A stretch of 64,000 nt of DNA from a virus: the IMG/VR virus record IMGVR_UViG_3300028394_000049, positions 43,345 through 107,344 of that record; one strand, written 5' to 3'. The first letter of the stretch is position 1, and each line of letters begins with the position of its first letter. Position numbers and translations under genes: made by a program. The notes below the pieces were generated by a model. The model ran no database searches. It worked only from the letters and a program-made list of their open reading frames with translations, and was not told where the DNA came from. Positions 2,718 to 64,000 of this stretch are shown piece by piece.

Positions 2718-3556
2718 TTATCGGTGGTTACACAAACTACGGCATCAACCAACTTAAACCTTGGGTATTATCTGCAAAAGAAGTTTCAGGTGAAAACGAT
2801 GTTGTTTTAGTTGCTGGTAAAACATCAAAAGAAACGGTGGAGTGGTTACAGGAACAAGGTGTGGTTGTTGTTCCGATGATATCGGTCAACAATGTTCCTA
2901 TCCACGTATTGCGTTTTCTTTCCATTTATGATTACTTAAACAATCATTGGAAAGATTATGAATATGTTGTCACAACAGATGTGAAAGATGTTTACTTTCA
3001 AACAGACCCGTTTTATCCAATGACACGTTATCTTAAAGATGATTATAAACTTATTATTGCTTCTGAAGGATTGAAATACAAAGATGAATCTTGGGGCAAT
3101 GAGAATTTAATGCAGTCTTATGGACCTTATGTCTATGAGAAGTTTAAAGATAACGAAATCTTTAATGTTGGAACGTTCGGTGGTGTCTCTGAGTATGTGA
3201 AAGATATGGTGTTCAACATCTTCACTAATGCAATCAACAGGCCAATTCCTATCTGCGACCAAGCGGTCTTTAACGTACTAATAAATACACAACCATTTAA
3301 GAATATCGTTTTCAAGACATCAACTTGGGCATGTGAAGCGGGTACGGTTGCTGATCCATCAAAGATTGATAACTTTAGACCAAATCTATTATTTAAAGAA
3401 CCTATTGTAAAAAATGGTATTGTTTTAAGTGATGATGACTGCGAAATACCTTTTCCAATTGTTCACCAATATGATCGTGTACCTGATTGGAAAAAATTTG
3501 TCCAAGAAAAATATGGCCAAGAAGATGAATCGGAATATTTTATTTACAGGGCTTAA
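2699..3556 (+). CDS. Putative glycosyltransferase-like protein
   Basis: 285 residues. It opens with a hydrophobic strand (NLIIGGYTNYG) and carries YEYVVTTDVKDVYFQTDPF around residues 82-100. A TDVKDVYF block of this kind resembles the nucleotide-sugar/metal site of several GT-A enzymes, with D-x-x-D in place of DxD. Family placement is uncertain. It overlaps the gene upstream by 19 bases and lies 2 bases before the methyltransferase gene, so it is co-expressed with the cassette. Confidence 0.65.
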   Translation: MAQKNLIIGGYTNYGINQLKPWVLSAKEVSGENDVVLVAGKTSKETVEWLQEQGVVVVPMISVNNVPIHVLRFLSIYDYLNNHWKDYEYVVTTDVKDVYFQTDPFYPMTRYLKDDYKLIIASEGLKYKDESWGNENLMQSYGPYVYEKFKDNEIFNVGTFGGVSEYVKDMVFNIFTNAINRPIPICDQAVFNVLINTQPFKNIVFKTSTWACEAGTVADPSKIDNFRPNLLFKEPIVKNGIVLSDDDCEIPFPIVHQYDRVPDWKKFVQEKYGQEDESEYFIYRA

Positions 3557-43138: not shown

Positions 43139-43426
43139 ATGTTTGGTGGTAAAATTCTGGTAAAAACACGTAAAACCGTTGAAGGTTCTTATAGGCAGGA
43201 ATCATATTCTGATTCATGGCAGGATTCTATCGATATTGCCTATGATGGTGAATTGACACATGAAGTTTGTGAGGCAATTAAGAATGCTTTTTTCAAGTCA
43301 AAGGCACGGCAGAAGCCAGAATCTGGTTACGGCCAATTGCGTTGGTCGGCTGGTGATTATGTCTCCCATATCGATGTTGCCAAAAAGCAGTTGATTTTGT
43401 CTTGTTCCGTGAATATTTGTGATTGA
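43139..43426 (+). CDS. Small conserved protein, unknown function
   Basis: 95 residues; ATG 43139 is preferred over 43136 because GGAG lies 6 bases before it. Content: GGKILVKTRKTVEGSYRQES, a Ser/Asp stretch, GYGQLRWSAGDYVSHIDVAK and ILSCSVNIC. No domain assigned. First gene of a small operon behind the promoter at 43084. Confidence 0.5.
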   Translation: MFGGKILVKTRKTVEGSYRQESYSDSWQDSIDIAYDGELTHEVCEAIKNAFFKSKARQKPESGYGQLRWSAGDYVSHIDVAKKQLILSCSVNICD

Positions 43427-62644: not shown

Positions 62645-62726
62645 GTGGGCCAAACAGGAAAAAGAATCCAATAGGATAGAAAAATACAAATCATATAATC
62701 CACACGACTTATCATACTTTACATAA
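62559..62726 (+). CDS. 55-residue basic protein
   Basis: GGGAG lies 5 bases before the ATG, and the stop overlaps the next ATG as TAATG. MSKKRMMSKAQRLYYESQKK then EKIRQALDEWAKQEKES and NPHDLSYFT. Both junctions favour a real gene over the alternative frame. Confidence 0.55.
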   Translation: MSKKRMMSKAQRLYYESQKKEKIRQALDEWAKQEKESNRIEKYKSYNPHDLSYFT

Positions 62727-63382
62727 TGTTTAATTATTGCCCACCCAAAGATTTACCTGACTTATTCTCTGAAACATTTCCTGATGGAAAAAGATATTAC
62801 AAATTGGCTGATGGTACGAAATTGCCATCAGTCACTACTGTACTAGGTGCCATGAAAAAGGAAGCAATCAGTTTATGGCGTAAACGGGTGGGTGAAGTTG
62901 AAGCGAATAAGATAACCAAAAAGGCCACAGGTCGTGGCACGAACGTTCACACTCTTTGTGAACGATATCTCAACAACGAAGATATGGGCCCAATGATGCC
63001 TGATGCTTTGGAGATGTTCTATTCATTGAAACCACTACTCAATAGAATAAATAACATACATTACCAAGAACAGGCATTATGGTCAACACAACTAGGTCTT
63101 GCTGGTCGTGTAGATTGTATTGGTGAGTTTGATGGTTCTTTGTCCGTTATTGATTTTAAAACTTCCAGAAAAATAAAAACAAAAGGACAGATTGAAGATT
63201 ATTTTTGGCAAACCGCAGCATACGCTTTGATGTATGAAGAACTCATCGGTAAACCAATTGATAATCTAGTTGTTATCATGGCTGTAGAGGATGAACAACC
63301 TATATTATTCCAAGAAAAAACAGAAGATCATATTGATGGCCTTGTGAAGGCTATTAAATACTATAAGGACCAATATAAATGA
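62726..63382 (+). CDS. RecB/Cas4-like PD-(D/E)XK exonuclease
   Basis: 218 residues. GRVDCIGEFDGSLSVIDFKT gives D and D-F-K (the D...(D/E)xK site); GTNVHTLCERYL and TAAYALMYEEL provide the helical His and the QxxxY-type motif. Similar phage proteins are exonucleases for recombination or host DNA turnover. KLADGTKLPSVTTVLGA at the start is also usual. ATGA overlap with the secreted nuclease gene. Confidence 0.85.
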   Translation: MFNYCPPKDLPDLFSETFPDGKRYYKLADGTKLPSVTTVLGAMKKEAISLWRKRVGEVEANKITKKATGRGTNVHTLCERYLNNEDMGPMMPDALEMFYSLKPLLNRINNIHYQEQALWSTQLGLAGRVDCIGEFDGSLSVIDFKTSRKIKTKGQIEDYFWQTAAYALMYEELIGKPIDNLVVIMAVEDEQPILFQEKTEDHIDGLVKAIKYYKDQYK

Positions 63383-63816
63383 AAAAATTCTTAATTGCCT
63401 TGAGCATTTGTTGTGCGTTGCCAGTATTTGCTCAACAACAAAAAGCAGGTGTAACATACAACGCAACTTTAACTAGAGTTATCGATGGTGATACAGTAGC
63501 GTTTCAAGCATTATGGTTGCCTGAACCTTTGAAGAAAGAATTATCTATTCGTGTCTATGGTGTCGATACACCAGAAAAAGGATTTCGTGCTAAGTGTCCG
63601 CAAGAAGATGCTAAAGGTCAAGCTGCATCACAGTTCACCAAAAAGATGGTAGAACAATCAACTACTCGCCAAGTGGTACTAATGGATTGGGACAAATATG
63701 GTGGTCGTGTACTGGGTGATGTATTACTCAACGGTCAATCCTTACGTTCCATGTTGATCCAACAAGGTTACGCAAGAGAATATTATGGTGAGGCAAAACA
63801 ATCTTGGTGTGACTGA
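63379..63816 (+). CDS. Secreted thermonuclease (SNase-like)
   Basis: 145 residues. Signal peptide (cleaved near VFA-Q, 18/19). The SNase fold is complete: RVIDGDT (D36), IRVYGVDTPEKG (R58, E66) and DKYGGRVLGDV (R110), matching Asp21, Arg35, Glu43 and Arg87 of staphylococcal nuclease. Ca2+-dependent, cuts DNA and RNA. Exported to the periplasm or outside; it could attack competing DNA or recover nucleotides. It is immediately upstream of the tmRNA promoter. Confidence 0.9.
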   Translation: MKKFLIALSICCALPVFAQQQKAGVTYNATLTRVIDGDTVAFQALWLPEPLKKELSIRVYGVDTPEKGFRAKCPQEDAKGQAASQFTKKMVEQSTTRQVVLMDWDKYGGRVLGDVLLNGQSLRSMLIQQGYAREYYGEAKQSWCD

Positions 63817-63823
63817 TTGGCTG

Positions 63824-63852
63824 TTGACAAACTATAAATAATCCTGTATACT
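63824..63852 (+). promoter_or_regulatory. Sigma70-like promoter, overlapping TATAAATA
   Basis: TTGACA, 17 bases, TATACT. The late octamer TATAAATA (63833-63840) lies inside the spacer, so early and late transcription could both start here. No ORF of note follows; the RNA gene does. Confidence 0.72.
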
Positions 63853-63858
63853 TAATAG

Positions 63859-64000
63859 GTATACAAGTTATTGCTGTATGAAGCAAAGAGAAAAGTGTTC
63901 TGGACGGGGGTGCGAATCCCCCCAGGTCCACCAATTATCTATTTTTATCCTAAACGGATAATTATCTGGATTAAATAAAATTGGATAATTGATGGGCCTG
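63859..64000 (+). ncRNA. ssrA: Circularly permuted (two-piece) tmRNA, acceptor half and start of the coding half; truncated by window end
   Basis: A T-arm at 63906-63922 (GGGGG, loop TGCGAAT, CCCCC) is followed by the acceptor 3' strand CAGGTCC, discriminator A and encoded CCA at 63931-63933. No matching 5' acceptor lies upstream. It lies downstream: GGGCCTG at 63994-64000 pairs with CAGGTCC in seven positions (one G-U). Between them CAATTATC (63932) and GATAATTG (63984) pair perfectly, making a longer stem across the intervening loop. This is the order of permuted ssrA genes. The tag-coding part lies beyond the window. The 63859 start is estimated from the promoter. Confidence 0.78.

Follow-up and report, generated by a model that had tools for sequence, protein, structure and literature searches.

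What kind of gene lies at the end of this viral contig? The window, the whole stretch of 64,000 nucleotides that was analysed (positions 43,345 to 107,344 of IMG/VR record IMGVR_UViG_3300028394_000049), ends with 177 bases in which the first-pass annotation saw an apparent circularly permuted tmRNA gene. It described a promoter, a T-arm with encoded CCA, an AT-rich intervening loop of 60 bases, and a 5′ acceptor strand that pairs with the upstream 3′ strand. All of these elements are present. The feature is very probably a circularly permuted tmRNA (ssrA) gene of the betaproteobacterial type, carried by a T4-like aquatic phage, of which the contig end leaves only the 5′ part; its presumed role would be ribosome rescue.

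Anatomy of the gene at the contig end

The following features are located on the plus strand of the window.

63824–63852, + strand: σ70-type promoter, TTGACA-17 nt-TATACT (−35 at 63824–63829, −10 at 63847–63852), from the sequence
63869–64000, + strand: permuted tmRNA gene body, cut by the contig end (RF04321, 50.3 bits; complete in contig L125 at 3079–3378)
63869–63933, + strand: acceptor piece, the 3′ portion of the tRNA-like domain and the first to be encoded (ARAGORN layout on L125, Rfam alignment)
63897–63902, + strand: 3′ strand of helix P2, GUUCUG (covarying six-pair helix, RF04321 structure)
63906–63922, + strand: T-arm, 5-bp stem and 7-nt loop (GGGGG at 63906–63910, CCCCC at 63918–63922)
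63923–63933, + strand: acceptor 3′ strand CAGGTCC (63923–63929), discriminator A73 (63930) and encoded CCA (63931–63933), from the sequence
63934–63993, + strand: AT-rich intervening segment of 60 nt, from the sequence, with predicted removal from the mature RNA
63994–64000, + strand: 5′ acceptor strand G1–G7 of the coding piece, GGGCCTG, pairing with 63923–63929

The gene order is promoter, acceptor piece with encoded CCA, intervening segment, and coding piece. The acceptor stem (63994–64000 with 63923–63929) has 7 bp with a single G-U at pair 3, formed by G3 (63996) and U70 (63927). It is separated by a symmetric 2×2 mismatch (63930–63931 with 63992–63993) from an 8-bp stem, CAATTATC (63932–63939) with GATAATTG (63984–63991), which closes the intervening segment in both the sequence and the fold. 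These pairings, described in the first-pass annotation as well, are above chance: the RF04321 model, run on the whole window, matches 63872–64000 with 50.3 bits (cut-off 47, E 6.5e-7). The partner of the P2 strand, CAGGGC, is located in the coding piece past the end of the window and is seen in L125 (see below). The promoter string TTGACA-17-TATACT has no other exact match in the window, its −10 part having been derived from the site itself.

Position 64000 is the physical end of the 107,344-bp viral contig, and the tmRNA gene is truncated in the window for this reason. The remainder of the gene was looked for at the start of the same contig and is absent there. ARAGORN makes no call anywhere in the window, because the gene is cut.

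Other assignments at this site were tried and rejected. A T4-type late promoter, TATAAATA at 63833–63840, belongs to a motif that is no commoner in the window than in shuffled sequence (4 versus 6.3 expected). A match of mir-4662 to the intervening stem reaches only about 25–29 bits against a family cut-off of 97 and reflects the length and AT-rich composition of the hairpin. The standard tmRNA model, RF00023, scores 30.4 bits on the window, below its cut-off of 47, and this score is driven by the shared T-arm.

The complete gene in a near-identical contig

With the protein sequence of the upstream exonuclease as query, L125 was retrieved, an 8-kb viral contig that is 97.6% identical to the window contig over about 2.4 kb. 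Within 63824–64000 there is one difference in 177 bases, located in the promoter spacer and outside the RNA. L125 continues beyond the window end with GGGCCTG CATAGTTTCGACAGGGC..., followed by the resume codon GCA. The tag frame, GCA AAC GAC TCA CAG TTC GCA TTA GCA GCC TAA, encodes ANDSQFALAA and a stop; it is absent from the truncated contig of the window, so that the tag and the coding piece are read here in a very close relative.

The RNA of L125 matches RF04321 over its full length with 122.1 bits (cut-off 47) and the beta_tmRNA model RF01850, also over its full length, with 106.3 bits (cut-off 84). ARAGORN calls a permuted tmRNA with the tag ANDSQFALAA. The prediction that this phage carries a permuted tmRNA gene is thereby borne out, as is the expectation that a tag frame and a pairing partner would lie within about 400 bases downstream: both are found within about 120 bases. 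Helix P2 (CAGGGC with GUUCUG) would join the two pieces. L125 has hairpins that match the pseudoknot regions of the Rfam models, a comparison made at the level of the hairpins.

Conservation and covariation among related tmRNAs

The loci used for this comparison gave 137 permuted tmRNA calls, 114 of them with distinct cores. A DNA pattern in which most of the 3′ acceptor strand is fixed and positions 68 and 69 are free had yielded the first 120 viral loci. Counts of acceptor pairs come straight from the ARAGORN annotation, since RNAalifold placed the acceptor stem one base out of register in the pooled alignment.

The pairs G1-C72, G2-C71 and G3-U70, together with ACCA, are kept in 113 of the 114 distinct permuted tmRNAs, an invariance that is partly built into the 3′ acceptor strand by the search pattern. 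Pair 4-69 is G-C, C-G or U-A in this set, and pair 5-68 is G-C, C-G, A-U or U-A. The same picture is given by 29 distinct sequences that were retrieved by way of neighbouring proteins and not by an RNA pattern, with G3-U70 and CCA present in 29 of 29. The G-U at pair 3 is the identity element for alanyl-tRNA synthetase.

In an alignment of 78 permuted tmRNAs, P2 is a covarying helix of six pairs, and the T-stem covaries too, with all five of its pairs varying on both sides and the second showing four pair types. The hairpin on the 3′ side of the tag carries a conserved 15-nt loop, UCCUCGUAACAGAAU, on stems of differing sequence. The two arms of this hairpin pair with each other (at least 5 bp) in 89% of 37 sequences, as compared to 4.6% when arms are swapped between sequences. 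The intervening segments have a mean of 9.2 terminal pairs versus 2.7 in shuffles, with a stem in most distinct segments. In addition, the codons for one and the same tag peptide differ synonymously between relatives, and variation in the conserved tag codons is mostly at third positions. Taken together, the covariation, the hairpin, the pairing of the intervening segment and the synonymous variation of the tag point to selection on both RNA structure and tag peptide.

The tags assigned by ARAGORN are unusually long, 23–31 residues, in eight of the phage permuted tmRNAs (L021, L041, L066, L070, L073, L088, L090 and L107). Some of these loci have a second resume-like motif inside the tag, such as ...GAANDSRFALAA in L066. 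Either these are true long tags or the resume codons have been misplaced.

Phage setting

The window contig belongs to a T4-like phage, with portal, major head protein, tail sheath, terminase, DNA polymerase and helicase families. Among isolates, Methylophilales phage Melnitz has the most similar capsid protein (65.9%). The contig also has 20 tRNA genes in a cluster outside the window (L003:11625–14730) that covers most amino acids; SmpB was not found in it. At the start of the contig (L002:1–180), short tandem repeats (accaatatcagtattatacaaggtgta...) are present in an apparent tail-type gene. Two conserved genes precede the tmRNA.

62726–63382, + strand: PHROG 298 exonuclease, conserved upstream neighbour (PHROG match)
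63379–63816, + strand: PHROG 452 endonuclease, its N-terminus resembling a signal peptide; upstream gene conserved among the closest phages

The exonuclease has close relatives in 67 loci with at least 1.6 kb of downstream sequence. These loci are partly redundant, so that the counts are not independent events. ARAGORN finds a permuted tmRNA downstream on the same strand in 41 of them, mostly 0.1–0.9 kb away. The Rfam models were run on 15 of the other 26 loci and detected, in nine of the 15, a tmRNA missed by ARAGORN (92–103 bits). A permuted tmRNA is therefore located near the exonuclease in at least 50 of the 67 related loci of this redundant set.

Seven loci with a permuted tmRNA at the same post-exonuclease site that ARAGORN misses (L135, L137, L140, L148, L149, L158 and L160) pass the alphaproteobacterial Rfam model and not the beta model, whereas L125 fits the beta model. 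An abiF RNA (RF03085) is above its cut-off in two of these loci (L137:6673–6710 and L140:11087–11124), about 3.5 kb downstream of the tmRNA.

Comparison with known tmRNAs

L125 is similar to the betaproteobacterial permuted tmRNA (RF01850; also RF04321, a merger of three bacterial permuted families, PMC11915505) in its gene order, acceptor piece with encoded CCA, intervening segment, P2 and terminal hairpin. The likeness extends to the D-loop region TTTCGAC, the resume codon GCA and the AND...ALAA tag, and both models are above cut-off. In comparison, the gene described here is phage-borne, its 60-nt intervening segment is AT-rich, and L125 is without stretches of RF01850 near the model end.

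The one-piece tmRNAs of Bxz1, Wildcat and phage G are likewise phage-borne and have the standard, unpermuted gene order. Phage-borne tmRNAs have been described for the mycobacteriophages Bxz1 and Wildcat and for Bacillus phage G (PMC4131195). A 2022 study of the T4-like phage Melnitz reported two-piece tmRNAs in aquatic phages and described the tmRNA of Melnitz itself as alphaproteobacterial-like; 53 of 133 unique phage tmRNAs were two-piece, and 50 of these 53 were marine or aquatic (PMC9004378). Permuted tmRNA in phages, the frequency of which the first-pass annotation left open, is thus neither rare nor new.

Melnitz shares with the present phage its T4-like nature, a permuted tmRNA, and a gene order of a PDDEXK nuclease, two small genes and then the permuted tmRNA. 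However, the RNAs are not close (no blastn match), the Melnitz tag is ANDNYVPVDYALAA, and the RNA of L125 scores best with the beta model. A blastn search of isolates at E 1e-5 gave no close tmRNA.

The permuted tmRNA of phages is already known, and this gene is a further example. What is added here is the presence of a tmRNA in at least 50 of 67 exonuclease loci, a 300-bp gene body that is identical despite diverged flanks (see below), and the observation that some carriers infect Xanthomonas or Stenotrophomonas.

Host lineages

Permuted two-piece tmRNAs had been taken to place the host in one of three bacterial lineages that have them. This conclusion is unsafe, since phage isolates that infect Stenotrophomonas, Xanthomonas or Synechococcus elongatus also have permuted tmRNAs, which are unannotated. 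The bacteria Xanthomonas and Stenotrophomonas are generally described as having a one-piece tmRNA. For S. elongatus there is a permuted-model signal, but only one, unspecified, of the 14 control genomes was above the cut-off. Four of the unannotated genes, as called by ARAGORN, are as follows.

L315:1299–1717: permuted tmRNA of BUCT-ZZ01
L316:1382–1725: permuted tmRNA of vB_SmaS-DLP_6
L317:1477–1927: permuted tmRNA of Xanthomonas X1
L318:1472–1889: permuted tmRNA of vB_Sm_QDWS359

All four are locally similar in sequence to L125, but they belong to other phages with other hosts and have other tags.

A pattern scan of bacterial genomes found only two MAG contigs, and no host can be named from it because each of the two comes with an additional tmRNA of the standard form, in the same contig or genome. 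The beta_tmRNA cut-off is passed by only two of 274 genomes of the class that holds one of these MAGs. L281:1803–2456 (same contig as L321, G002:C55, MAG UBP17_UBA6191) contains a standard tmRNA with the tag ADEDYALAA as well as a permuted tmRNA with the tag ANDDTYLLAANA. The two share one T-arm and CCA, with bacterial-looking genes upstream and phage-like genes downstream. This arrangement reflects either integration of a phage at ssrA or a chimeric assembly joined through the shared stretch of about 35 bp.

Proposed function and alternative explanations

A single precursor transcript would be made from the gene. Host tRNA-processing enzymes would excise the intervening segment, with RNase P acting at G1 and a 3′ nuclease after the CCA, and pairing in the acceptor stem and in P2 would keep the two pieces together. 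Host AlaRS would charge the tmRNA, and host SmpB would deliver it to ribosomes stalled on broken mRNAs during infection. The tag ANDSQFALAA would then be added, and may be recognised by host proteases of the ClpXP type.

The main rival is that a real permuted tmRNA acts as a decoy or competitor for host SmpB or AlaRS and damps host rescue and tagging, a role already proposed for the TLD-only tmRNA of mycobacteriophage DS6A. DS6A-like molecules are reported to inhibit endogenous tmRNA (PMC4131195; PMC11915505), and SmpB was not found in the phage contig. We regard such a role as unlikely: a decoy could dispense with the tag frame, its stop codon and the degron-like ending, yet all three are maintained, with synonymous variation.

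It is highly improbable that the feature is a functionless tmRNA remnant or an att-site fragment left by imprecise excision. The truncation that leaves the first part alone in the window is the contig end itself, and complete genes with intact pairing and tag are present in L125 and many relatives. These observations stand against the facts that ssrA is a common integration site (PMC9004378) and that in the MAG contig L281 a permuted gene directly adjoins an ssrA of host type. An ordinary tRNA gene or a chance hairpin, which would account for a T-arm and CCA and nothing else, is already refuted by the full-length match of L125, and in the window ARAGORN calls no tRNA there and Rfam favours a permuted tmRNA.

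Probable exchange of the gene body between phages

The permuted tmRNA genes of L125 and a second phage contig, L205, are exactly identical over 300 bases (L125:3079–3378, starting from window position 63869), a stretch that coincides with the RNA gene body. The identity spans the intervening segment, a part that is otherwise variable in sequence. In contrast, the upstream endonuclease genes are about 80% identical, most of the downstream DNA is about 50–70% identical, and the promoter-like site of L205 differs (TTGCCA-17-TATAAT). The simplest reading of these sequences is a recent recombination of the tmRNA gene body. Sequence common to different phages could also be a cause of the assembly stop at 64000.

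A broader and more tentative proposal, which we consider somewhat less probable than its opposite, is that permuted tmRNAs constitute a mobile lineage carried by phages. Gene bodies without a promoter might be swapped among T4-like aquatic phages at a fixed post-exonuclease site, independent of whether the tmRNA of the host is permuted or one-piece, and the phages might thus bring their own rescue RNA and tag.

The phage-borne permuted tmRNA is a regular feature of a large T4-like group, and at least one gene body appears to have moved as a unit between diverged phages. It can now be asked what need a lytic phage has for a rescue RNA and tag of its own, and whether phages are vehicles for permuted tmRNAs.
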